DNA of 64,000 nt from Bacteroidia bacterium (lineage in GTDB: Bacteria; Bacteroidota; Bacteroidia; B-17B0; Aurantibacillaceae): assembly GCA_016787785.1 (NCBI GenBank), contig JAEUTO010000014.1, positions 1 through 64,000 of the forward strand, given 5' to 3'. The position numbers and the translations under genes are program-made. Positions 1,167 to 32,771 of this stretch are shown one piece after another (the stretch's first letter is position 1; the number at the start of each line of letters is the position of its first letter). The notes below the pieces were generated by a model. The model saw nothing but the letters and a program-made list of their open reading frames with translations, made no database searches and had not been told where the DNA came from.

Positions 1167-2516
1167 ATGTCGGACAGTAAAATTACTTTATTCTTTATGG
1201 CCTTTGCGGCTCTGGTATCTGCCACAATGTGGATAGATTACTTTAGACGTATAGATGTTTTTGAAAGAGAAAAAGTATGGTCCTTAATTATTGCGTTAAT
1301 TATTGGCTGTTTTACCCCATCTATCTGTTTGTTCTTTTACAGCCTCATTCATAAAATGGGTTTTAGTGAGAACGGCAAATTTGTAAACGATTTTATTTAT
1401 GCCATACTTGCTGTTGGACTTAACGAAGAGTTCTCAAAAATAATTGGTGTTATTATTGTACTTACTGTTTTTAGGAAAAAAATTGATGAGCCAATAGATA
1501 TACTTATTTACGCCGGTATTACCGCTATTGGCTTTGCCATGGTTGAAAATTTTAAATACTTTAGTTTGTATGGCATTAAAGTTATTACGCCCCGCACCTT
1601 TTATTCTTCGTTAGAGCATATTATTAACACTACCTTAATAGTTTATGGTTTTTACAGGACAAGTTTGTTTAAAAAGGGTATTCCGGTTTTAAATGTGTTG
1701 GTCTTTTCTTCTCTTGCAGTGGCCTCTCACGGGTTATTCGACTTCTTTTTAATGGATACGTCGTTGGGATACTTTACCGCATTCTTTTCTATTATGATCT
1801 ATTTAATTGGTATTAATTTTTGGGTGCAAATGTTGAATAACGCAAATAACTATTCTAATTTTTTTGATTATGATAAGATACATTATACTGACAGGATCTT
1901 TTTACGTTTATTGTTTTGGTACTCTTTAACGTTAATAATAACCTTTATAAACAACCTCATAGTTTCAGATCTTAAAACAACTGTCACTCATTTTTTCTTT
2001 GGTTTGTTGTCTGATGGCTTTTTGTTTTGGGTTGTTATGTTACGGGCCAGTCGCTTTAAAATATATAAACTCAAATATTTTGATATTAAGATCCAGTTCC
2101 CTTTTTACATTACTAAAAATAACGACGAAGATTTTAAAATTCCCTTTTTAAATCTACCCATAAAAGTGCGTGGCGAGAATTACAGGGAGCACATTCCCAC
2201 AAAATATGTAGGCAAGAATATTGTTATTTGCCCCGTTAACGATAAAAAAAGTTACCTGAACATTCCGGTTAATGCAACAATAACTAATAAATACTTGTTG
2301 TTTGATGATGTTGTGGTGTATTCTGTTGTTTTCAATAATATTGGCCAGGGTTCCAATAATCTTTACCTCTTAAAGCCAAAAACAAGGGGTTTAACAGAGG
2401 TTGACGGCCTTTATCCTATTGAGGGTTTATACAAAGTAAATAACGAGGTAGTAGACCTTTCTAAAGTAGATATTAAAAGTCTCACGCGTTTAGAATGGGT
2501 TTACTTAAAAGTTTAA
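1167..2516 (+). CDS. PrsW-like intramembrane glutamic protease with C-terminal extra domain
   Basis: Predicted polytopic membrane protease of the PrsW/CPBP superfamily; PrsW in Bacillus cleaves an anti-sigma factor. The PrsW motifs appear in order: NEEFSK (E87, E88), FAMVENFKYF (E127, N128), LEHIINT (H151) and ASHGLFDFF (H188), all inside predicted membrane helices. Residues 1-300 hold about eight or nine hydrophobic segments. The last ~140 residues are soluble and probably beta-rich, with no motif I recognise; typical PrsW proteins are shorter. The ATG at 1167 lies just after the rplI terminator, so the gene probably has its own promoter. The substrate is unknown; no anti-sigma gene is adjacent. 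Confidence 0.85.
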   Translation: MSDSKITLFFMAFAALVSATMWIDYFRRIDVFEREKVWSLIIALIIGCFTPSICLFFYSLIHKMGFSENGKFVNDFIYAILAVGLNEEFSKIIGVIIVLTVFRKKIDEPIDILIYAGITAIGFAMVENFKYFSLYGIKVITPRTFYSSLEHIINTTLIVYGFYRTSLFKKGIPVLNVLVFSSLAVASHGLFDFFLMDTSLGYFTAFFSIMIYLIGINFWVQMLNNANNYSNFFDYDKIHYTDRIFLRLLFWYSLTLIITFINNLIVSDLKTTVTHFFFGLLSDGFLFWVVMLRASRFKIYKLKYFDIKIQFPFYITKNNDEDFKIPFLNLPIKVRGENYREHIPTKYVGKNIVICPVNDKKSYLNIPVNATITNKYLLFDDVVVYSVVFNNIGQGSNNLYLLKPKTRGLTEVDGLYPIEGLYKVNNEVVDLSKVDIKSLTRLEWVYLKV

Positions 2517-22975: not shown

Positions 22976-23183
22976 TTATTTAATTTTTATATTAACAAAG
23001 TAACAGGTATTGCAGCTAGTAATTTGTAACATAAAACCTCTCAAATTTCATATGTAAGATTTTTGGAGAATTTGATATGAAAAGCTTTTTAATGATTCCT
23101 TCACATTTTTTGTGGAATATAATAGCACGGCGCATCTTATTAGTAGATCAATTATATTAATTTAGATGTATAAATTATTCCAC

Positions 23184-24902
23184 ATGAAAAATCTTTTTTA
23201 TTTATTAGTAATTCCTTTTTTAGGATTTTCGCAAACACAAAATCCTGAACAACGATTTGAAACTCCCATTAAAGCAGTAACGCTTTATTTAGACGGAGCC
23301 GAAATTAACCAGCAAAAACAGCTTAATTTAAATGCCGGTATAACGCAGGTAGTTTTTACGAACCTTTCTTCAAAATTAATTCCAAAAAGTATACAGGTTA
23401 ATGTTGGCGAAAGCATTAGCGTATTAAGTGTTTCAGAAAAATTAAATTTTCTTAGTCTTAATCCAGAAAGCTCAAAAATAAAACAATTAAGAGATTCTCT
23501 TAAAACCAATCAATACAAAACGCAGCAATTAGTTTATGACAAAGAAGCTTTTGATAAAGAAAAGGAGTTGCTTGCAAAAAATAATAGTATTGGAGGCCAG
23601 GAGAAGGGCGTTTCTATTGCTGAGTTAAAACTTGCTGCCGATTTTTACCGTTCTCGCATTAAAGAAATTAATACCGAGATATTAAAATATGATACTAAGA
23701 TAAACGAGATGTATGCAGTAACTAACCGTTTACAAAACGAATTAAATGAATTGCATGCTAACGAAAACAAACCAACCGGCGAAATTATTATTTTATTACA
23801 GTCTGATATAAAAGTTACTGCTAACATTGATCTTAAATACGTTGTATCGGATGCTGGCTGGGCACCTTATTACGAGTTAAAAGCAGATGACATTGGTAAA
23901 CCAATTACGCTTGTTTACCGAGCGCGCGCATTTAATAATACCGGTATTAACTGGGCTGATGTAAAATTAAAATTATCAACTTCCGATCCCACACGTAATG
24001 CTTCAAAACCTACTGTAATGCCGTGGTTCTTAAATTTTAATTCAGATGTGTATGGTCAGTCAAGTGGTTATTTAAGTAATAACGCTAATAAAAATTTCTA
24101 TCAAAAATCGCAAATAAATGATGGTAATTTAGAAAATCAATTTGGTGCTAAACAACAATTAAATGAAGTAGAGCTTAAATCGTGGAACGAATACCAAACA
24201 AAAAACAGACGTGATGAAGCTAATAACACTAAAAAAATTGTTTACGAAGAAGTGCAGGTGTCTGAGTTAAGTGCAGAGTTTGAAATTAAAAAACCATATT
24301 CAATTCCATCAGATGCTAAACCATATATTGTAGAAGTTACAACCTACAGTCTTAACGCAACCTTCAAACATTATTCACTTCCTAAAGTAGAGAAAGATGC
24401 TTTTCTTTTAGCGCGCATTACAGGCTGGGAAGATCTTGATCTTATCGAAGGTCCTGCCAATGTTTATTTTGCAGGTACTTTTGTTGGCCAGTCGTACGTT
24501 AATCCACGAAGCGTAAATGATACTTTAGACCTGTCATTTGGTCGCGACAGTAAAGTAATTGTTACACGCACAAAAATTAAAGATTTTAATAACGAAAAAG
24601 TAATGGGCAATAATCGTAAGATGACCTACTCATACGAAATGGTAATTAAAAATAATCGTAAAACTGCTATTAATATTGATCTGGAAGATCAGAAACCGAT
24701 CTCGCAAAGTAATGAGATAGTTGTTGAAGTAACAGAGTTATCAAAAGGCCAGGTAAATCCTGATGATGGTAAAGTAAGCTGGAAATTTTTAATTCCTCCG
24801 GGCGAATCGCAAAAGGTAATTTATACCTATACGATAAAATATCCTAAAAATAGGAATGTAGATACCGAAAAGAAAATGCGCAAAGTAAGGGCAGCATTTT
24901 AA
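23184..24902 (+). CDS. DUF4139/DUF4140 (mucoidy-inhibitor-A-like) secreted protein
   Basis: Signal peptide MKNLFYLLVIPFLGFSQ, then an N-terminal DUF4140 domain (about 28-130; ETPIKAVTLYLDGAEINQQ), a coiled coil (105-195) and the C-terminal DUF4139 domain (about 205-572). Diagnostic stretches are VTANIDLKYVVSDAGWAPYY, TLVYRARAFNNTGINW and the final WKFLIPPGESQKVIYTYTI. The family is widespread with no established activity; the founder MuiA affects mucoidy in Streptomyces. The ATG at 23184 gives the signal peptide; the one at 23166 adds six residues. A Gln/Asn-rich variable insert lies in the middle. Confidence 0.85.
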   Translation: MKNLFYLLVIPFLGFSQTQNPEQRFETPIKAVTLYLDGAEINQQKQLNLNAGITQVVFTNLSSKLIPKSIQVNVGESISVLSVSEKLNFLSLNPESSKIKQLRDSLKTNQYKTQQLVYDKEAFDKEKELLAKNNSIGGQEKGVSIAELKLAADFYRSRIKEINTEILKYDTKINEMYAVTNRLQNELNELHANENKPTGEIIILLQSDIKVTANIDLKYVVSDAGWAPYYELKADDIGKPITLVYRARAFNNTGINWADVKLKLSTSDPTRNASKPTVMPWFLNFNSDVYGQSSGYLSNNANKNFYQKSQINDGNLENQFGAKQQLNEVELKSWNEYQTKNRRDEANNTKKIVYEEVQVSELSAEFEIKKPYSIPSDAKPYIVEVTTYSLNATFKHYSLPKVEKDAFLLARITGWEDLDLIEGPANVYFAGTFVGQSYVNPRSVNDTLDLSFGRDSKVIVTRTKIKDFNNEKVMGNNRKMTYSYEMVIKNNRKTAINIDLEDQKPISQSNEIVVEVTELSKGQVNPDDGKVSWKFLIPPGESQKVIYTYTIKYPKNRNVDTEKKMRKVRAAF

Positions 24903-24913
24903 GAATGATTTAT

Positions 24914-24966
24914 GACCTATGATTGAAGATTTAAGAATTACCTGTCTTCTATCATAGGTCTTTTAT
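24914..24966 (+). terminator. Long-stem terminator after the DUF4139 gene
   Basis: Perfect 10-base arms GACCTATGAT / ATCATAGGTC (24914-24923, 24951-24960) extended by GAAG / CTTC, followed by TTTT. It separates this gene from the convergent MNIO cassette. Confidence 0.75.
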
Positions 24967-24971
24967 CTATT

Positions 24972-26087
24972 CTAATTCCATTTCTTTATAAGCACCATAG
25001 CTGTTTCAACCATGTAATTTTTCCACAGAGCCGGATCCCAATCTTTAAGCGCTTTGTTTTTTGTGAGAACCTTTGTAGCTTTTGCCACATCTTTGTGTTT
25101 AAGGAGTGTTTCAATAATAAGTTGCTGTTGTTTTCTTAATACCTTGCTTTCTAACGGTTCTTTTGCAACTGTATGTTTAATTATTTTTTTTGTTAAACGC
25201 TCTGACGGACTGTTTTCATTTTTCTTTTGAGTTGCAACTATTTTTTTTATTTTTTTAAAGTCTTTCGCAAATTGTAATTTATCTTTTTCAGTTTTGATCG
25301 TATTTCCTAAACGTTCAAAAATTATGTATTCTACGTTTTTACAAAGTGGTAAAGCGCTCTTTAATAGTTCAAAAACCTCTTTTGGCACTGCCTCATCGTG
25401 CGTGTCTCTCCTTACTTTGTTCTTGCTTGTACTAACGTCTGCCCAGCTTCCACCTGAAACATGAATTTCTCTTACTTTATCAAGTGGGTAAGACTTTACT
25501 AGCTCTATAGGGTCTATTTTAAAATTACTTGCCTGGCAGTAGATATTATGCAGGTCTAATATTAAAAAACCATTTACCGGCTCTAATAATTTTTTAAGAA
25601 ACTCACCTTGTTCTTTTACCTGTTTGGTACTTAAAGCAAAAGCAAGATTTTCTATACCAACCGGTAATTGCGAGATGTTTTGTAAACGCTTTAAACGATC
25701 TTGTCCAATTGCTAAAGTTGTTTTATTAAGTGGCACGGGTAGTGGAGTGCCCTTATGAAAATCGTCAGAACTCATAAAACCAAAATGTTCGGTAACATGA
25801 CGATAATTGTATTTTTTAACGGCGGTAGAAAGTTGTTTAAGCCATTTCTCCTGGTTGCTGTCCCACTGAGCTTTTAATAAAGAGTATCTAACACCATGAC
25901 CAATTAGCCTGCCGTTTTTAGAGTACTCATTTAAAAGCAAACTAAGCCATTGTGGTTCTTTAGAATTAGAGCGCAATGTATCAAATGACCATTCAATAAC
26001 ATCAACTTCTCCGTTTTGGAATAGTGGGAGGGCCGCTTCAATAAAATCGGCTTCGGGCATTAAAGATATTCCAACCCATGGCAGCAT
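24972..26087 (-). CDS. DUF692/MNIO multinuclear iron oxidase, RiPP maturase, with C-terminal extension
   Basis: Predicted TIM-barrel multinuclear non-heme iron oxidase of the MbnB/TglH/ChrH family, which modifies cysteines of ribosomal peptides. Candidate metal ligands in order: LIGHGVRYS (H64), VTEHFGF (E100, H101), GIENLAF (E146, N147), LILDLHNIYCQASNF (D178, N181), REIHVSGG (H209), RRDTHDEAVP (D228, H230) and IIFERLG (E258). All core motifs look intact. The barrel ends near residue 280. The remaining ~90 residues are a Lys-rich linker and a helical segment (SKVLRKQQQLIIETLLKH ... ALWKNYMVETAMVLIKKW) not found in the ~280-residue family minimum, possibly a fused substrate-recognition partner. 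It is last in the cassette, after four peptide genes ending in CxxCGxG. No separate partner gene is visible. Confidence 0.9.
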   Translation of the reverse strand: MLPWVGISLMPEADFIEAALPLFQNGEVDVIEWSFDTLRSNSKEPQWLSLLLNEYSKNGRLIGHGVRYSLLKAQWDSNQEKWLKQLSTAVKKYNYRHVTEHFGFMSSDDFHKGTPLPVPLNKTTLAIGQDRLKRLQNISQLPVGIENLAFALSTKQVKEQGEFLKKLLEPVNGFLILDLHNIYCQASNFKIDPIELVKSYPLDKVREIHVSGGSWADVSTSKNKVRRDTHDEAVPKEVFELLKSALPLCKNVEYIIFERLGNTIKTEKDKLQFAKDFKKIKKIVATQKKNENSPSERLTKKIIKHTVAKEPLESKVLRKQQQLIIETLLKHKDVAKATKVLTKNKALKDWDPALWKNYMVETAMVLIKKWN

Positions 26088-26103
26088 ATTTCAAATATAC
26101 TAA

Positions 26104-26169
26104 TTAGTCGTTAGATACTAGTAGCCAGTCATTAGTCGTGGCGACTATTGACTAATCACTTGAGACTAA
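26104..26169 (-). promoter_or_regulatory. Hairpin array between precursor 4 and the MNIO gene, with a -7-like box
   Basis: Arms AGTCATTAGTCG / CGACTATTGACT (26127-26138, 26142-26153; 3-base loop, one T-T mismatch) sit inside outer arms TTAGTC / GACTAA (26104-26109, 26164-26169). Beyond it, on the minus strand, is TATATTTG (complement of 26092-26099), 5 bases before the MNIO ATG. It may limit read-through from the peptides, with or without a separate maturase promoter; no -33 box is evident. Confidence 0.5.
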
Positions 26170-26176
26170 CAACTGC

Positions 26177-26392
26177 TTACCCCATCCCACAAGGCGGGCA
26201 GTAATCCGGGCTAATAACCATTTTTTTATTTTTAGAGACCTTTACAGAATCTTTTTTTGAGGGCTCGTTTTTTTTAACTTTAGTAGCGGTGCTGGTCTTT
26301 GTTTTTGGTTTGTCGTCTCCTTTTTGTTTTGGAGTTTGGGCCACAGCGCTATAGCTGATCATGGCGGTTAAAACAATAGCTGATAGTTTCAT
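26177..26392 (-). CDS. Putative MNIO RiPP precursor 4, ends YCPPCGMG
   Basis: 71 residues. Hydrophobic N-terminus MKLSAIVLTAMISYSAVAQ with a Sec-type cleavage site after AVA, a Lys/Thr/Ser-rich linker (20-60) and the C-terminus SPDYCPPCGMG-stop. The ATG at 26392 is chosen because it aligns with the other three precursors; the longer frame from 26467 only adds intergenic sequence. It lies nearest the MNIO gene. It has no cysteine other than the two in the tail. Its role as an MNIO substrate is inferred from family precedent and neighbourhood. Confidence 0.8.
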   Translation of the reverse strand: MKLSAIVLTAMISYSAVAQTPKQKGDDKPKTKTSTATKVKKNEPSKKDSVKVSKNKKMVISPDYCPPCGMG

Positions 26393-26478
26393 AATATTTT
26401 TTTTATTTATGTAAAATGTAATAGGTAAGATGTAAAATGGATACATTTTCCATTTTCCTTTCCCCATCTTCCATTAGT

Positions 26479-26700
26479 TTATCCCATCCCACAACCCGGA
26501 CAATATCTTGCCGCGTGACGTTTTGGTTTATTTGTTTGTGAGTTTGAAGTGTCACTTTTTGTTTTTGTTGTACTTTTAAGTTTATGCTGTTTAGCAGTAC
26601 TTGCTTTTGCCGTTGTGTCTTTTTGTGCAGATTTTGATTGGGCAAAAGTGCCGGTACTAAAACTTATCAGGGCGCCCAAGGCTAAAGTTGATATTTTCAT
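26479..26700 (-). CDS. Putative MNIO RiPP precursor 3, ends YCPGCGMG
   Basis: 73 residues. It starts MKISTLALGALISFSTGTFA with a likely signal-peptidase site before Q21, then a Lys/Thr/Ser/Gln-rich linker and the tail HAARYCPGCGMG-stop. The first 15 codons are almost identical at DNA level to precursor 2, indicating recent duplication, while the linker has drifted. The only cysteines are the two in the C-terminal CxxCGxG. It lies 86 bases before precursor 4 and 47 bases after precursor 2. Confidence 0.8.
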   Translation of the reverse strand: MKISTLALGALISFSTGTFAQSKSAQKDTTAKASTAKQHKLKSTTKTKSDTSNSQTNKPKRHAARYCPGCGMG

Positions 26701-26747
26701 AATTAATGTCTAAATCTTAAGTCATATATCTTTAATCTTAAATCACT

Positions 26748-26963
26748 TTATCCTCTTCCACAAGCTTCACAAACTCTTGATGAGCGCTTAGGCTCAACCA
26801 ATAAAGTAGAATCGCTAACTGCTACCTGTGTTTTTGGATTTACACATTTTGTTTTTGTAGTTTTTGTATGTTTTGTTTTCTTAACGGTTTTAGGCGTATC
26901 CTGCGCTAAAGCATTTACACTAAAACTGATCAGGGCTCCAAGAGCTAAAGTTGATAATTTCAT
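26748..26963 (-). CDS. Putative MNIO RiPP precursor 2, ends VCEACGRG
   Basis: 71 residues. N-terminus MKLSTLALGALISFSVNALAQ, with a clean ALA-Q cleavage site, then a Lys/Thr-rich linker holding one extra cysteine (TKTKCVNPKT, C40) and the tail SSRVCEACGRG-stop. The paralogue keeps the spacing CxxCGxG but replaces the Pro and Met of precursors 3 and 4 with Glu/Ala and Arg, so the modified product could differ. Confidence 0.8.
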   Translation of the reverse strand: MKLSTLALGALISFSVNALAQDTPKTVKKTKHTKTTKTKCVNPKTQVAVSDSTLLVEPKRSSRVCEACGRG

Positions 26964-27061
26964 TTTCTTTGTTTCTATTTAGATGCTTCACTTTCGGAAA
27001 TTCCATAAATGAAGTTAATAATTTTAGGACTGCCGGCAAACGACTGATGACTGGTGTCTGT

Positions 27062-27298
27062 TCACCCTTTCCCGCATTTGCCGCAGGAGTTTAATTCTTC
27101 AGCTTTTGGCTCGTTTTTAGGCGCAAATTCGTTGGGTTTTAGCTTATTTTGTTTCAGTTGTTTGCTTTTGGCATTAACCATGTGTGAGGTTTTTTTAGCC
27201 TTTAAAGTGTCGCCAAAACATGGGTTTTGAGTTGTATTGGCGCTTAAACCCAGGCTAAAGCTTATTAGCGTTTTTAGAGCTATTGCTGATAATTCCAT
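27062..27298 (-). CDS. Putative MNIO RiPP precursor 1, divergent, ends SCGKCGKG
   Basis: 78 residues, first in the cassette and the most divergent copy. N-terminus MELSAIALKTLISFSLGLSA aligns with the others but has Glu at position 2 and a Lys in the hydrophobic core, which weakens it as a signal peptide. An extra cysteine occurs in NPCFGDT (C27). The linker is Lys/Asn/Glu-rich and the tail reads ELNSCGKCGKG-stop. It may be a decaying copy or a functional variant. The 74-base gap to the divergent SGNH hydrolase gene should hold the cassette promoter, but I found no convincing -33/-7 pair. Confidence 0.72.
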   Translation of the reverse strand: MELSAIALKTLISFSLGLSANTTQNPCFGDTLKAKKTSHMVNAKSKQLKQNKLKPNEFAPKNEPKAEELNSCGKCGKG

Positions 27299-27372
27299 GT
27301 TTCTTTTATGTTTGGATGCAGGATCTTATCCTTTTCCATAAAACCTAGCCAATTTTTTAATAAATTTAATCA

Positions 27373-28635
27373 ATGAAAAAAGCCTTTTGGATTGCTATAT
27401 TCTTGCCATTTTTTATGGCAGCACAGCCGGTGCGTAAAAAGGTGTCGGCATTATTTATTGGGAATAGTTATACTTACGTGAATAACCTTCCTTTGCTTGT
27501 TTCTAACCTCGCACTCGCAAATGGGGATACCCTGGTTTATGATGATAATACGCCCGGTGGTTACACATTTGGTAATCATTTTACAAATAGTGTTACCAAT
27601 ACTAAAATAAACGCTAAGGCCTGGGATTATGTTATTTTGCAGGCTCAAAGCCAGGAACCTTCTTTTTCTCCATCTCAGGTTTACAGTCAAACCTTACCTT
27701 ATGCCATTAAACTTGATAGTATAATTAAGCATAATAATAGCTGCACCAACACTGTGTTTTATGAAACCTGGGGGCGCAAAAATGGCGATGCCAGCAATTG
27801 CGCTGTTTATCCGCCCGTGTGTACCTATTTAGGAATGCAAAACAGGTTAAGACAATCGTACAAAAAATTTGCCGATACCTGCAGTGCTGTTATGTCGCCC
27901 GTTGGTGAAGCATTTAAAAGGTCAATAGCTTTAAACCCTTCTCTTGAATTATATCAGGGGGATGAAAGTCATCCTTCATTAGAAGGTTCTTATTTGGCAG
28001 CCTGTGTTTTTTATGAAGTATTATTTCAAAAGTCAGTATTATCAAACACATTTATTGCATCGGTTAATTCTGCTACTGCAACATTTTTGCAGCAGGTAGC
28101 ACATGCTGTTGTAACAGATAGTTTGGCAGTTTGGAATTTAGGTATACACCAGCCATGGGCCGATTTTTCTTACAATTGGGTAGCGGGTTTAAACTACAAT
28201 TTTGTAACCAACTCGTTATTTTTTACCAATGTGTGGCGTTTTGGAGACGGCGGCACTTCGTTAGTTCCTACAACTAATCATTTTTATCCGGCAAACGGAA
28301 CATATACCGTTACGCATATTGTAAGTAATAATTGTAAAACAGATTCTATTTTAAAGGAGGTTGTTATAAATTCAACAGGCATTCAAACAAATAATGTAAA
28401 TGCGGCTGTTTCTATTTATCCCAATCCGGCACGTACGAATTTATTTATTACCGGGGCTGATAATTTTGAGAATAGCAATTCACGCGTTGAGATTAAGAAT
28501 AATATCGGGCAAACTATTTACGAAGCGCCATTTAGTAAACTAATAAATATCAAAAATCTAATTAATGGTGTATATAATTTAAAAATATATAACGATATCA
28601 GTACTTTAAAGTTTCAATTTATTAAAAGCGATTAA
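27373..28635 (+). CDS. T9SS-secreted SGNH/GDSL-like hydrolase with PKD domain
   Basis: Signal peptide MKKAFWIAIFLPFFMAAQ, then an SGNH-fold hydrolase resembling DUF4886 (about 20-235). Visible blocks are ALFIGNSYTYVNNLP (nucleophile Ser in GNSYT), VILQAQSQEP and the catalytic DESHPS pair near residue 200. A PKD-like domain follows (about 250-340; WRFGDGGTS ... TYTVTHIVSNNC). The C-terminus is a type A T9SS sorting domain (about 345-420; VSIYPNPARTNLFI ... GVYNLKIYN). An esterase or polysaccharide deacylase on the cell surface or in the medium is inferred. Its downstream neighbour begins 12 bases later. Confidence 0.85.
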   Translation: MKKAFWIAIFLPFFMAAQPVRKKVSALFIGNSYTYVNNLPLLVSNLALANGDTLVYDDNTPGGYTFGNHFTNSVTNTKINAKAWDYVILQAQSQEPSFSPSQVYSQTLPYAIKLDSIIKHNNSCTNTVFYETWGRKNGDASNCAVYPPVCTYLGMQNRLRQSYKKFADTCSAVMSPVGEAFKRSIALNPSLELYQGDESHPSLEGSYLAACVFYEVLFQKSVLSNTFIASVNSATATFLQQVAHAVVTDSLAVWNLGIHQPWADFSYNWVAGLNYNFVTNSLFFTNVWRFGDGGTSLVPTTNHFYPANGTYTVTHIVSNNCKTDSILKEVVINSTGIQTNNVNAAVSIYPNPARTNLFITGADNFENSNSRVEIKNNIGQTIYEAPFSKLINIKNLINGVYNLKIYNDISTLKFQFIKSD

Positions 28636-28647
28636 TTACCTTTGTTT

Positions 28648-29919
28648 ATGATCAAAAAAATAACTTTACTTTTTTGCCTTGTTTTAGCAACAGTACAATT
28701 TTCTTTTTCGCAAACCATTAATCACACATTAATTAAAGCAGATAAACTTTTTATTAAGCAGGAATTTGCCGATGCTGCTAAAGGTTACGAACGTTACTTG
28801 AAATCTTTTCCTAAAGATTATTATGCTTCGCGTCAGGCAGCCATCTGTTACAAAAAAACGAACAATCAGAACCAGGCCATAGATCATTGGCCAAACGTAA
28901 TTGAAAGCAGCAAAGTAACCGATGCCGACAGATTGGATTATGCAAAATGTTTGTTGGCAAATTACCGTACCCAAGATGCGACCATGATGATCAATTTTTT
29001 AAAGACCAGTCCTGATAAAGCAATAGCAGCATGGGGTATGGCTTACCTTAACACAGCGCAATTTTATATGGATTCGGCCACAACAAAGGTAAAAGAAGTT
29101 ATTGGCGTTAATACAACTGCTTCAGAAGATTGTCCTTTGATCTCAAATAATAAACTTGTATTTATTTCCGAAAAAAATAAAAGCTCTAGAGTTTTTGTTG
29201 CTACGGGTCATGACAATAAAAGTGTAATTACTTCTTTCACAAAAAAAGATGATCTTAATTTTTCTGATGGACAACCTTTTGCAAAACAAATTCAGGGAAA
29301 GGGTATATGCAGTCAGGTGAGTTTAAATGCTGATGAAAGCTTAATGTATTACAGCCGCTCGGTACCTGCAAAAGAAATAAACAAATTAAGTGAAGCGGGT
29401 TATAAATTCCAGATCTATAGTGCTAATCCTCACGCTGAAAAAACAGAAATAGCAACACCTTTCGTACATAATTCGGCTGAGTATGATTTCCTTCATCCAA
29501 GTATTAGTAAGGATGGTTTAAAACTTTATTTTTCGAGTGATATGAAAGGCAGTTTAGGCGGGAAAGATATTTTTGTTTGTGAGTTTGTTAATGGTGCCTG
29601 GAGTGCTCCAAAAAATTTAGGCGTATTAATAAATACACCTGGCGATGAAGTTTTTCCGCACATTACTGAAGAAGGCGTTTTATATTTTGCCAGTGATGCC
29701 AGACCTGGTTTAGGTGGATTGGATATTTTTTACGCTGAGCCTAATAAAGACGATGGTACTTTTTTTACCGCTAAGAACGCCGGAGCTCCAATTAATACGC
29801 AGTTTGACGATTATAGTATCTATATTTTAAAAGGCGGAAAAAGCGGTTACTTTAGCAGCAATCGTAAGAACAATTTACAGGATGATGATATTTATTATTT
29901 TGTAAGAGAAACGCCTTAA
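28648..29919 (+). CDS. Secreted TPR/PD40 propeller protein
   Basis: Signal peptide MIKKITLLFCLVLATVQFSFSQ, a TPR-like N-terminal part (about 25-150) and PD40/WD40-like blades (about 165-420) such as LYFSSDMKGSLGGKDIFVCE, LYFASDARPGLGGLDIFYAE and GYFSSNRKNN. Similar architecture is seen in PorE-type proteins, but there is no OmpA or SPOR domain here. The ATG at 28648 is used; the TTG two codons earlier is not needed. TACCTTTG (28637-28644), just upstream, is a -7-like box very close to the start. The stop overlaps the stop of the convergent lipoprotein gene by 3 bases. Confidence 0.8.
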   Translation: MIKKITLLFCLVLATVQFSFSQTINHTLIKADKLFIKQEFADAAKGYERYLKSFPKDYYASRQAAICYKKTNNQNQAIDHWPNVIESSKVTDADRLDYAKCLLANYRTQDATMMINFLKTSPDKAIAAWGMAYLNTAQFYMDSATTKVKEVIGVNTTASEDCPLISNNKLVFISEKNKSSRVFVATGHDNKSVITSFTKKDDLNFSDGQPFAKQIQGKGICSQVSLNADESLMYYSRSVPAKEINKLSEAGYKFQIYSANPHAEKTEIATPFVHNSAEYDFLHPSISKDGLKLYFSSDMKGSLGGKDIFVCEFVNGAWSAPKNLGVLINTPGDEVFPHITEEGVLYFASDARPGLGGLDIFYAEPNKDDGTFFTAKNAGAPINTQFDDYSIYILKGGKSGYFSSNRKNNLQDDDIYYFVRETP

Positions 29920-30671
29920 ATAGAAAATATTAGTGCGAAAAGGAGGATCTTACCAATTACTCCAAGCACACCTAATACTATTCCTAACGTTGCCATTCCT
30001 TTACCACTGTATTTTTGAGGCTCCCTGTTTATTTTTCTTATAGCAACCGCACCAAAGATAATAGCTGGAATACTGCCAATAAATAAAAACAAACCTGTAA
30101 TCCCAGTAACTAATGATATGACTGCTGATTCGTGAATACTAGGCCCCTTATTGTTATTATTATTGTTGTTGCTACTATTGTTATTATTTGATGGTTTTAC
30201 TTCCGGTTCTGCCTTAAAAACTTCTTTCGTTCCGTTGGCATAAGTGATCATAAAAACGGTTGATTTTTTTATGATGTAAGACGGACCATCCGGGCTATCA
30301 CATTTTTTATATTTTATATCAAAGGGTGCTATTTCAAGAATTTTTACATTAAGTTCATCCCCGTTTTTAAAAGTGATCTTGTCGCAGGGTTCATCTTTAG
30401 TTAAATTTATTAAAGGGCTGTTATTATTTAGAAGTGAGATTTTTTTGGCAGCAGAAGCTTCCGGTTCGGGTTCAAGTTCTGTAAATAATTTAACTGGTTT
30501 TAAAGCAAGTTCTTCTGTTCTCGTCTCTTTTTTTGCAGATGCGATCCTATCTTTTTTTGCGAGAGTTTTTGTTTTGTTTGAGCTAACGTAAAACCCTTTT
30601 TGGTATTTTCTTTTTTGTACCGAGCAAGAAAATAAAATAATAAGCGGTAAAATAAAAAGTAGTTTTTTCAT
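29916..30671 (-). CDS. Tandem lipoprotein paralogue D (GFYVS motif, KNGDE domain, DUF4190-like tail)
   Basis: Lipoprotein signal MKKLLFILPLIILFSC, followed at once by the Bacteroidota lipoprotein motif SVQKRKYQKGFYVS. A variable linker leads to a conserved strand-rich domain (about 95-160; CDKITFKNGDELNVKILEI ... KYKKCDSPDGPSYIIKKSTV). An Asn-rich linker follows, then two hydrophobic helices (about 185-250) in a DUF4190-like layout (HESAVISLVTGITGLFLFI, KGMATLGIVLGVLGVIGK). It is probably anchored in the envelope by both lipid and helices. It is last of four paralogues on this strand; function unknown. Confidence 0.75.
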   Translation of the reverse strand: MKKLLFILPLIILFSCSVQKRKYQKGFYVSSNKTKTLAKKDRIASAKKETRTEELALKPVKLFTELEPEPEASAAKKISLLNNNSPLINLTKDEPCDKITFKNGDELNVKILEIAPFDIKYKKCDSPDGPSYIIKKSTVFMITYANGTKEVFKAEPEVKPSNNNNSSNNNNNNNKGPSIHESAVISLVTGITGLFLFIGSIPAIIFGAVAIRKINREPQKYSGKGMATLGIVLGVLGVIGKILLFALIFSI

Positions 30672-30684
30672 ATAGAAAACAAAT

Positions 30685-31419
30685 TTATGCTAAAGCCAGT
30701 TGTAAAATAAATAACAAGCCAAAGCTAACTAATAAAAATGCAAAGGCAAGTTTTTTTGCATTCCTGGCTTTTTTTTCACCAGTGTAACGGTTTGGATTTT
30801 GTTTAATGTCTTTTAGGGCATCACCAGCATCTACGATAGCTTTTATACAAGCCAATATTCCCAGTATAGGTATCAATCCAAACCAGGCAAAAATGAGCGC
30901 TGATTTTGCTTTTGGATGCAAGGTTTTTGGCCCGGTATAACTTGTATCTGGTACGATCTCCTCTTTTGTATTATTTGGCTCGTTTGTTTTCTCAACATCT
31001 ATTACATCCTTTGTTCCATTGGTGTATTTGATCATAAACACATCCATTTTTTTTACAACATACAAGGGGCCATCAGGCGATAAACATTTTTTATATTTAA
31101 TTTCGATGGGAGATATTTCTAAAACTTTTGCCTTAATATCATCGCCGTTTTTTAGCACAATGATGTCACAAAGCGTGTCAGGGTCAATAGCTGGCAGGCT
31201 TTGATGTTTTGGTATTACAATTTCCGGTAACGCAGAAGCAAAAACATTCAGATCTGTTTCTTCATTTTTTATTTCTTGTTTTTCGATCACACGATCTTTT
31301 ATTTTTAGGCTATGCTTGTAATTTGAGTTACTTACGTAAAATCCTTTTTGATAGTGACGCTTTTGTATTGAACACGAAAGTAAGAATAGGATAGGGAGTA
31401 TGAATATTGACTTTTTCAA
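30685..31419 (-). CDS. Tandem lipoprotein paralogue C
   Basis: Same architecture as its neighbours: signal MKKSIFILPILFLLSC, then SIQKRHYQKGFYVSN, a linker, the core domain CDIIVLKNGDDIKAKVLEIS ... KKCLSPDGPLYVVKKMDVFM (about 88-145), and a C-terminal pair of hydrophobic helices with KSALIFAWFGLIPILGILAC and the basic EKKARNAKKLAFAFLL. The core is closest to paralogue B, suggesting that B and C duplicated most recently. Gaps to the neighbours are 13 and 22 bases, so the four genes form one operon. Confidence 0.75.
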   Translation of the reverse strand: MKKSIFILPILFLLSCSIQKRHYQKGFYVSNSNYKHSLKIKDRVIEKQEIKNEETDLNVFASALPEIVIPKHQSLPAIDPDTLCDIIVLKNGDDIKAKVLEISPIEIKYKKCLSPDGPLYVVKKMDVFMIKYTNGTKDVIDVEKTNEPNNTKEEIVPDTSYTGPKTLHPKAKSALIFAWFGLIPILGILACIKAIVDAGDALKDIKQNPNRYTGEKKARNAKKLAFAFLLVSFGLLFILQLALA

Positions 31420-31441
31420 TTTATCTTATTTTAAGGTTGTT

Positions 31442-31885
31442 TTACCTGCTGGATAAAACGATTCCTACAATATACAATGCAGCAAGTATGGCTCCTATCG
31501 GCAAGAATATTCTATGCGCCCATCTCGAATTTGCTTCGCATTGTTTTATGTGTTCTTCTTCTTCTTTTGTGTTTTTTTGGTCGCCACTATTGCTGCTATC
31601 CGACATTGGATTATCGCCCTTAATAACTTCTTTTGTGCCATTAGAATACTTGATCATGAATACGTCATTTTTCTTTACAACATACAAAGGCCCGTCAGGT
31701 GATAAGCATTTTTTATATTTAATTTCAATGGGCGTTATCTCTAAAACTTTGGCTTTAACTTCATCACCATTCTTCAGTATAACAAGATCACAAAGCGAGT
31801 CATTGTTTAGGCTAGAGGATAGGGCAGAGGCAGAAAAGCCCGATAGAAAAACTAATATCTGAAGTATAAAAACTATTTTTTTCAT
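31442..31885 (-). CDS. Tandem paralogue B, short form without lipoprotein motif
   Basis: 147 residues. The signal MKKIVFILQILVFLSGFSAS has no lipobox cysteine and the QKRKYQKGFYVS motif is absent. The core domain (about 30-90) is kept: CDLVILKNGDEVKAKVLEIT ... KKCLSPDGPLYVVKKNDVFM. After an acidic linker there is one C-terminal helix (FLPIGAILAALYIVGIVL) in place of the two-helix DUF4190-like region. It looks like an internally deleted but still open copy. Confidence 0.72.
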   Translation of the reverse strand: MKKIVFILQILVFLSGFSASALSSSLNNDSLCDLVILKNGDEVKAKVLEITPIEIKYKKCLSPDGPLYVVKKNDVFMIKYSNGTKEVIKGDNPMSDSSNSGDQKNTKEEEEHIKQCEANSRWAHRIFLPIGAILAALYIVGIVLSSR

Positions 31886-31897
31886 TTCTTTAATAAA

Positions 31898-32680
31898 CTA
31901 CATGCCAAGTAAAAAAGCAAACACTGCTATCATCACAATTACCAACAATACCAGCATAATATAGCCTAATACCCGCGCAACCTTTGCAAGCATTTCGCCT
32001 TTGTACTGGTTTGGTTTTTGTTTAATTTCCTTTAATGCTATGTTGGCAAATATAATAGCACCAATACTTGCAAGACCGGTTAGTGGATAGATCCCAAAAA
32101 TGGCAGATATAAAAGCTAATACGGCCAAAGGATGCATTTTTTTTGGTCCTGTATATTTATCTTTTGGTTTGTTGGTTCCGTTATTGTTACTGTTGCTTGT
32201 AGGTTCTGTTCCTTCAACTTTAAAAACTTCTTTAGTTCCATTAACGTATTTTATCATAAACACGTCGCTTTTCTTAACAATGTAAAGTGGTCCATCCGTT
32301 ACGCCGCATTTTTGATACTTCACTTCAGTAGGCGTAATTTCAAGGATCTTAGCGCTAACTTCTTCACCGTTCTTTAACATGATCTGATCGCAAAGAGAAT
32401 CGGCAGCTCTTAACTTTTTAATAAAAGGTGATTGTAATAAAAGAAGAGGCGTTGTATTTGCAGAAGCGGAGATGTTTAACGCTTCATTTTCAGTAACAGT
32501 AATAGCGGTTTGTTTTAAAACAAGAGACTCGGTTGCCAGATCTTTTTTAACCTTATCTTTTTTTTGTACTTGCTTTGAATGTTTTGTATTACTAACGTAA
32601 AAACCCTTTTGATACTTACGTTTTTGTACAGAACACGAAAACAAAATAAGAAACGGAAGTATTAAAAGTAGTCTTTGCAT
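31898..32680 (-). CDS. Tandem lipoprotein paralogue A, first of the operon
   Basis: Lipoprotein signal MQRLLLILPFLILFSC, motif SVQKRKYQKGFYVSNTK, a linker, the core domain (about 100-160; CDQIMLKNGEEVSAKILEIT ... KYQKCGVTDGPLYIVKKSDV), an Asn-rich linker, then DUF4190-like helices (about 180-260; HPLAVLAFISAIFGIYPLTG, NIALKEIKQKPNQYKGEMLA). The ATG at 32680 is chosen over the one at 32692, as it gives the usual short basic N-terminus. Function unknown; the KNGDE core resembles small beta-barrel domains found in Bacteroidota envelope proteins. Confidence 0.75.
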   Translation of the reverse strand: MQRLLLILPFLILFSCSVQKRKYQKGFYVSNTKHSKQVQKKDKVKKDLATESLVLKQTAITVTENEALNISASANTTPLLLLQSPFIKKLRAADSLCDQIMLKNGEEVSAKILEITPTEVKYQKCGVTDGPLYIVKKSDVFMIKYVNGTKEVFKVEGTEPTSNSNNNGTNKPKDKYTGPKKMHPLAVLAFISAIFGIYPLTGLASIGAIIFANIALKEIKQKPNQYKGEMLAKVARVLGYIMLVLLVIVMIAVFAFLLGM

Positions 32681-32771
32681 AGTAAAAATCATTTATAGTA
32701 TAACGGTATAGTTATTTCAATATTGTAAATTGGTAATACCGTTTACTAAGACCAATAAAATACCAAAAGGT

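Follow-up and report, generated by a model that had tools for sequence, protein, structure and literature searches.

A four-precursor array with differing CxxCGxG tails beside a ChrH/DybH-type MNIO enzyme in a Bacteroidia bacterium, and a promoter-like element it appears to share with envelope-related genes

The ChrH subfamily of MNIO (DUF692) enzymes is marked by an additional C-terminal helical bundle and by precursor peptides ending in CPxCGxG (PMC12636315, a 2025 preprint). The chr gene cluster is described in PMC10214503. The product of ChrA is S-methylated (+10 Da) and is formed without ChrI, while DybH is active alone in vitro and gives a product of -4 Da that contains a macrocycle and a hydantoin (PMC12636315). 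According to the same source, recognition by DybH needs the seven-residue tail alone, as tested on GFP; the enzyme accepts DybA mutants with the tails CPPCGMG and CPAACGMG and tolerates changes inside the ring, and a natural CPGCGLG tail is modified as well. In the substrates tested there, position 2 is Pro and position 6 is Met or Leu. Other clades reportedly vary the motif, as in an embedded CPACGMMM; Bacteroidota clusters of the subfamily outside Chryseobacterium have no obvious partner gene, and the function of chryseobasin-type products is stated to be unknown. Here, we describe a locus on the first 64,000 nucleotides of contig JAEUTO010000014.1 of a Bacteroidia bacterium (this whole stretch is called the window), in which four small tandem genes, A1 to A4, encode putative precursors with a C-terminal CxxCGxG and are followed by a single MNIO gene (Table 1). 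DybA/DybH of Dyadobacter crusticola and the homologs ChsAH and HymAH (PMC12636315) resemble this locus in the fused C-terminal domain, the lack of a partner gene and a minimal cluster with small precursors; theirs end in CPxCGxG, as do two of the four window precursors.

The locus is, in our judgement, rather probably a self-contained operon of the ChrH/DybH type, with an envelope-type promoter, four precursors and one partner-free MNIO that carries out ring-forming chemistry. This reading is based on the full-length match of the enzyme, the tail motif of the subfamily, the tail tolerance of DybH, the co-occurrence of enzyme and precursors, and tails that stay unchanged between species. Furthermore, ChrI is absent from the source genome whereas a Chryseobacterium-type locus has one, and a promoter-like element stands before all 12 genes with a Lys or Arg tail as well as before ExbD, MG2, CAP and MuiA-like genes. 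The enzyme subfamily, the tails, the co-occurrence, the selection on the tails and the shared element are what the sequence itself supplies; that an iron enzyme ties the peptide ends into rings is probable by analogy with the characterized members. The enzyme class has already been described. What looks new is the panel of putative substrates in one lineage, some of them Lys/Arg-tailed and each conserved separately, together with the gene set that has the promoter-like element in common with the array.

An earlier note on this DNA had pointed to four small minus-strand genes with similar N-termini and a CxxCGxG directly before the stop codon, followed by a DUF692 gene with intact metal-ligand motifs, and all of these were recovered. 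The enzyme is assigned by sequence to the ChrH/DybH subfamily with a fused C-terminal domain: its match to the NCBIfam model MNIO_ChrH (NF050165) extends over residues 3-371 and reaches model position 361 of 363. Twelve candidate metal-ligand or neighbouring positions (H64, H97, E100, H101, E146, D178, H180, N181, H209, D228, H230 and E258) are identical in 20/20 aligned ChrH-type enzymes; by homology, these probably include the ligands. A structure model built from five sequences has a mean predicted local distance difference test (pLDDT) score of 67.8, with the extra C-terminal helices at 34-68, and its nearest solved folds are TglH and MbnB. No signal peptide was seen in the enzyme.

The window enzyme is 48-49% identical to two ChrH enzymes above the NCBIfam cut-off (those of genomes G528 and G574, with 707 and 686 bits) and 42-47% identical to nine enzymes that accompany lipobox-bearing precursors. 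In a tree without outgroup, the two ChrH group on one side of a branch (100/100), as do the nine lipobox-type enzymes (100/100) and the nine enzymes of the source order (86/85). With bufferin-type outgroups, the tree has a very long branch, bootstrap support is unsettled and the enzymes of the order do not fall on one side of a branch. The latter enzymes look like a third lineage, placed on the ChrH side. One genome, G144, has near a contig start (L123, 401-1279) a ChrH-like enzyme of 292 residues without the C-terminal domain, which is perhaps a split form like MelH/MelHc.

An MNIO enzyme next to secreted cysteine-containing peptides could also belong to a metal-binding system of the bufferin, oxazolin or methanobactin-like type, since BufAB and HvfAB have these elements in common with the locus and the enzyme does match the BufB (105 bits) and HvfB (92 bits) models. 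This is highly improbable. Both scores fall well short of the ChrH score and do not reach their own cut-offs (310 and 360), those for ApyH (46 bits) and MbnB (20 bits) are lower still, and no partner gene lies beside the operon, whereas bufferins and oxazolins have a partner protein, other motifs and enzymes of a distant clade (six of them are 21-28% identical to the window enzyme). The source genome has a separate locus that fits the oxazolin type. Model scores, enzyme clade and missing partner are also the grounds on which a bufferin or copper-chelator reading was set aside. This other locus (L001, contig C13, 59400-63185) consists of a precursor with GKCG repeats (NF050137, 31 bits, cut-off 19.5) and an MNIO gene; a DoxX gene is nearby, and inspection by eye adds two open reading frames (ORFs), one resembling a sigma factor and the other a partner. 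The earlier note had proposed a pathway for ribosomally synthesized and post-translationally modified peptides (RiPPs) giving cysteine-derived, perhaps metal-binding products. The RiPP cassette stands and the cysteines are probably modified; metal binding is not indicated, because the characterized products of the subfamily contain a macrocycle and a hydantoin (PMC12636315). The terminal motif and the lack of a partner gene, which had been thought unusual, are normal for this subfamily (PMC12636315).

Table 1. Features of the array and its surroundings, with positions in the window
Feature	Position	Strand	Description
Precursor A1	27062..27298	-	78 aa, ends SCGKCGKG-stop; tail CGKCGKG (Lys tail, no Pro)
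Precursor A2	26748..26963	-	71 aa, ends VCEACGRG-stop; tail CEACGRG (Arg tail, no Pro)
Precursor A3	26479..26700	-	73 aa, ends YCPGCGMG-stop; tail CPGCGMG (Met tail)
Precursor A4	26177..26392	-	71 aa, ends YCPPCGMG-stop; tail CPPCGMG (Met tail)
MNIO (DUF692) enzyme, assigned to ChrH/DybH subfamily	24972..26087	-	371 aa; PF05114 (MbnB_TglH_ChrH) 124 bits, NF050165 470 bits
C-terminal helical extension of the MNIO	24975..25289	-	residues ~267-371; aligns in 20/20 ChrH-type enzymes
Promoter-like element before A1	27310..27342	-	TTTATGGAA-N15-CATCCAAAC, 17/18 positions
Promoter-like element before A2	26977..27009	-	TTTATGGAA-N15-CATCTAAAT, 18/18 positions
Promoter-like element before MuiA-like gene	23109..23141	+	two mismatches
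MuiA-like gene	23166-24902	+	convergent; MuiA family, 265 bits; outside operon
Divergent gene	27373-28635		DUF4886 and type IX secretion system (T9SS) sorting tail; flanks array

The four precursors begin with MELSA, MKLST, MKIST and MKLSA, and contain ISFS (three) or ISYS (one); for A4, which lies in an ORF of up to 96 aa, the start was placed at the ATG corresponding to those of the other three. Their predicted mature forms carry 12-14 Lys/Arg against 2-5 Asp/Glu. Lipidation was set aside, as none of the four precursors has, by eye, a lipobox Cys after the signal sequence; the same holds for the order's remaining 20 intact precursors. A DnaJ-like zinc motif (CxxCxGxG) was set aside too, the CxxCGxG spacing being off by one residue. 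In the 4.6-Mb source genome (G000, 16 contigs), the tail pattern TGYNNNNNNTGYGGNNNNGGNTRR has four matches, all inside the array, and the reversed control has three. A scan of 40 genomes of the genus gives 93 matches. Precursor arrays account for 19; the remaining 74 are no more than the reversed control yields (90). When 39 of these 74 were inspected, 28 proved to be ORFs of 7-78 codons that end in the pattern, and none of the 28 has a precursor start of the MK[LI]S type. The CxxCGxG-terminated array is not a product of chance.

In comparison with ChrA of chryseobasin, to which the earlier note had drawn attention, the likeness in length (~70 residues), Lys-richness, signal peptide ending in A-Q and absence of a lipobox is clear, while the scores stay below the cut-off of 50 of the ChrA model (NF050124): 23.9, 24.4 and 30.1 bits for A2, A3 and A4, and no match for A1, against 123 bits for a bona fide ChrA. 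The two Chryseobacterium-type loci read each have a single CPACGMG precursor; the window array has four. The chryseobasin cluster includes ChrI, ChrE and ChrP, and in G528 a ChrI-like gene (matching PF08592), an epimerase gene and an M42 peptidase gene stand beside the enzyme, which is not the case here; a ChrI-like gene also adjoins the enzyme in G574, G528 being the one locus checked for the other two genes. The entire source genome has no match to a ChrI homolog (Anthrone_oxy/DUF1772).

Within the order of the source genome, 87 genomes, all of one family, were sampled, and ten of these encode the enzyme (413-487 bits). Nine loci were read, leaving aside G040, where a contig end cuts the enzyme and there is no upstream sequence. 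G144, near whose enzyme no C..CG. precursor was found in the 9 kb read, is left out of the array counts, and G031, whose contig ends just upstream, contributes a single precursor. All eight genomes with a complete upstream context, G000 included, have at least two precursors beside the enzyme, in line with the co-occurrence of peptide and enzyme that the earlier note had asked about. The number is four in G000, G003 and G009, three in G013 and G021, and two in G057, G067 and G046, which amounts to 24 intact precursors and one interrupted copy for the order. In all eight, position 6 of the tail is Lys or Arg in the most upstream gene, and at least one CPPCGMG, CGPCGMG or CPGCGMG gene lies between it and the enzyme; G021 has a CNKCGLG tail in addition. 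Altogether, a Lys/Arg tail occurs in 11 intact precursors and the interrupted one, and so does the absence of Pro at position 2 (11 and one). When small ORFs with a signal sequence near the enzymes were listed independently of the motif, by a crude rule on hydrophobicity, no further precursor type appeared. In three relatives (L124, 10217-10645; L091, 8308-8844; L093, 9047-9442), the gene of an unrelated small secreted protein separates the last precursor gene from that of the enzyme; one of these proteins is lipocalin-like, one MORN-like (below cut-off, in the G057 array) and one without family.

Could such an array have arisen by simple local duplication, its tails relaxed and its members without roles of their own? 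The signal peptides are similar, the copy number ranges from two to four, the CPGCGMG gene is absent from G013, and the Lys-tail gene of G046 carries an in-frame TAG. The tails, however, argue for another view, and we consider such a history quite unlikely. A1 has orthologs with an identical tail in G003, G009 and G013, A3 in G003 and G009, and the tail of A4 is also present in G003, G009, G013, G031, G057, G046 and G067; in A2, even the internal Cys in TKCV is kept in 4/4 orthologs. CGKCGKG, CEACGRG, CPGCGMG and CPPCGMG are each kept in three to five species, with silent changes only: in 25/25 ortholog pairs from the four groups, the seven-residue tails have no amino-acid and 2-6 silent changes, although the pairs are non-independent and about 4.5 silent sites per tail make the rates rough. 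The linkers, in contrast, have nonsynonymous divergence (dN) values of 0.04-1.1. Furthermore, even at loci with an enzyme identity of only 53-56% and another neighbourhood, the genes still run Lys/Arg tail, Met tail, enzyme. By this comparison, each tail type is under selection and separately conserved between close species. The four-precursor array is indeed unusual, as had been suggested; more telling is that the array combines different kinds of tail, each conserved on its own.

Outside the order, 11 loci were compared (G447, G406, G157, G263, G528, G574, G565, G572, G517, G553 and L146 of Hymenobacter volaticus), a selection of the known ones drawn from two overlapping class samples (396 and 393 genomes) and one plasmid search. 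A single precursor is present at ten; G447 has two. All 12 precursors end in CP[AG]CG[ML]G. In the DybA type, the precursor is lipidated via the lipobox Cys, and it is single in eight of the nine lipobox-type loci compared (G447 being the exception), whereas the loci of the source order have two to four precursors each, no lipobox, and Lys/Arg tails besides. None of the 23 genomes from the order of G090 (Flavobacteriales, as a guess) has a ChrH-type enzyme. In H. volaticus, the CPACGMG precursor (L146, 4743-4943, plasmid NZ_CP095062.1) is of the lipobox type and adjoins a ChrH-type enzyme; the gene table shown for the plasmid has no entry for it.

Several observations weigh against the operon being of the proposed kind. 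The MNIO_ChrH score of 470 bits is under the NCBIfam cut-off of 600, although the enzymes of the nine lipobox-type loci are likewise under it (377-408 bits among the matches listed). Seven of eight precursors scored against the ChrA model reach 17-37 bits, A1 giving no match, so that window enzyme and precursors alike are below the cut-offs. The enzyme is found in only 6/40 genomes of the genus; its function is therefore accessory. In G046, the in-frame TAG lies shortly before the tail of the Lys-tail gene (L092, ~1980-2166, minus strand), which may reflect real decay or an assembly error, and this member may be dispensable. Finally, CPxCGxG is the ending of two of the four window precursors, and the tails of the other two lack both the Pro and the Met of the characterized motif; in the available parts of the subfamily literature, no experimental test of such tails was found. 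The titles, abstracts and main texts consulted likewise contained no multi-precursor ChrH arrays or Lys/Arg tails; for bufferins, tandem precursor genes are mentioned (PMC12452194).

It could be imagined that ChrH-type substrates are limited to the two Met-tail peptides, and that the Lys/Arg-tail peptides are unmodified or otherwise changed and have another role, for instance as a carrier, a regulator, or a thiol or metal-binding CxxC peptide. Position 2 is Pro and position 6 Met or Leu in all 12 outside precursors and in the substrates tested in PMC12636315; CGKCGKG and CEACGRG deviate at both. Nevertheless, all four precursors belong to one gene family and one operon, with the same exact C-terminal register; the Lys/Arg tails are conserved as strictly as the Met tails; relatives have the intermediate tails CPACGRG (Pro present) and CGPCGMG (Met, no Pro); and DybH tolerates changes inside the ring (PMC12636315). 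On balance, such a division among the peptides seems unlikely, and a common substrate role for all four within a ChrH/DybH-kind operon is preferred.

Alignment of the sequence upstream of A1 in four species gave a conserved stretch, kept in G003, G009 and G013, and from this a 33-bp element was defined, scored over 18 positions as TTTATGGAA-N15-CATCYAAAT. All 12 Lys/Arg-tail genes have an upstream score of 16-18. For the Met/Leu-tail genes of the order with upstream sequence (12 genes) the score is 9-12, and for all 12 precursors outside the order it is 10-12. Since the Lys/Arg-tail genes are first in the array, the element may simply be the operon promoter; and since the pattern was derived from the arrays, the array sites are not independent support. 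The source genome has 16 sites with at most two mismatches, against three for the reversed pattern, and the 40 genus genomes have 120 with at most one mismatch, against six for the control. At 13 of the 14 off-array sites in the source genome, a same-strand ORF of at least 171 aa with an ATG start begins within 13-103 nt downstream. Ten of the 14 downstream ORFs were scanned with Pfam, yielding MG2, ExbD, CBM_4_9, CAP, CarboxypepD_reg (at cut-off) and PD40, one sub-threshold DUF6789 and three without family; a further site is that of the MuiA-like neighbour, and no sigma factor was seen among the ORFs downstream of the 14 sites. When one site was taken from each of 29 other genomes, 25 preceded a homolog of a source-genome target (in one case the array itself), ExbD in nine. 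These patterns suggest that the operon is under the same type of promoter as a conserved group of genes for envelope and secreted proteins. From its two boxes, we infer that the element may be read by an extracytoplasmic function (ECF) sigma factor. Known promoter types gave no clear counterpart: TTTATGGAA-N15-CATCYWAAT differs from the sigma-A -7 box TAnnTTTG (PMC9723704), it is not evidently alike to the SigP motif (PMC4800418), and no match to the CGT-box motif SM6 (PMC9723704) was established. A consensus scan of 24800-27450 gave no signal for sigma-70 promoters (5 against 8.0 expected) or terminators (0 against 2.1). At the place matching the site of the MuiA-like gene, L087, L089 and L090 have similar sites.

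In the proposed working, the promoter of an envelope-related gene set would drive the four precursors and the MNIO. By comparison with DybAH and ChrAH, the presumably cytoplasmic enzyme would bind the C-terminal CxxCGxG and carry out a four-electron oxidation, so that the first Cys sulfur and what had been the second Cys become linked in a macrocycle and Cys-Gly-X becomes a hydantoin; the product would be either S-methylated (+10 Da, ChrH-like) or not (-4 Da, DybH-like). The peptides would then be exported by Sec and cleaved near A-x-A/Q, and basic peptides of ~51-58 residues with four different C-terminal ring groups would be released in the periplasm or outside. The residue beside the hydantoin would be Met in two ring groups and Lys or Arg in the other two. 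Most likely, these peptides would act at the cell envelope. A bolder proposal, which we put forward as possible and with more doubt, is that the partner-free enzyme matures a fixed substrate panel with up to four ring groups, including Pro-less Lys/Arg rings, within an ExbD/MG2/MuiA-like gene set. If true, the cell envelope would have a secreted peptide system of several components, and chryseobasin-type chemistry would gain its first functional setting. A lineage in which selection maintains several unlike tails would form a natural test of the tolerance of the enzyme at ring positions 2-3 and at the residue after Gly, and the element common to envelope genes would be a first lead to the function of such peptides.

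The genes of the array are closely spaced, with gaps of 98 (A1-A2), 47 (A2-A3), 86 (A3-A4) and 89 bp (A4-enzyme). The flanking DUF4886 and MuiA-like genes are kept in G003, G009 and G013; in G021, G057, G046 and G067, the enzyme is the sole strong match to the window stretch. Further along the window (29916-32692, minus strand), there are four tandem related lipoprotein-like genes, of which the two scanned were both DUF4190, and relatives apparently have fewer copies. In L223 (G016), which has no ChrH-type enzyme, the promoter-like element precedes a gene for a 178-aa secreted protein that resembles, by eye, the MORN-like insert of G057.

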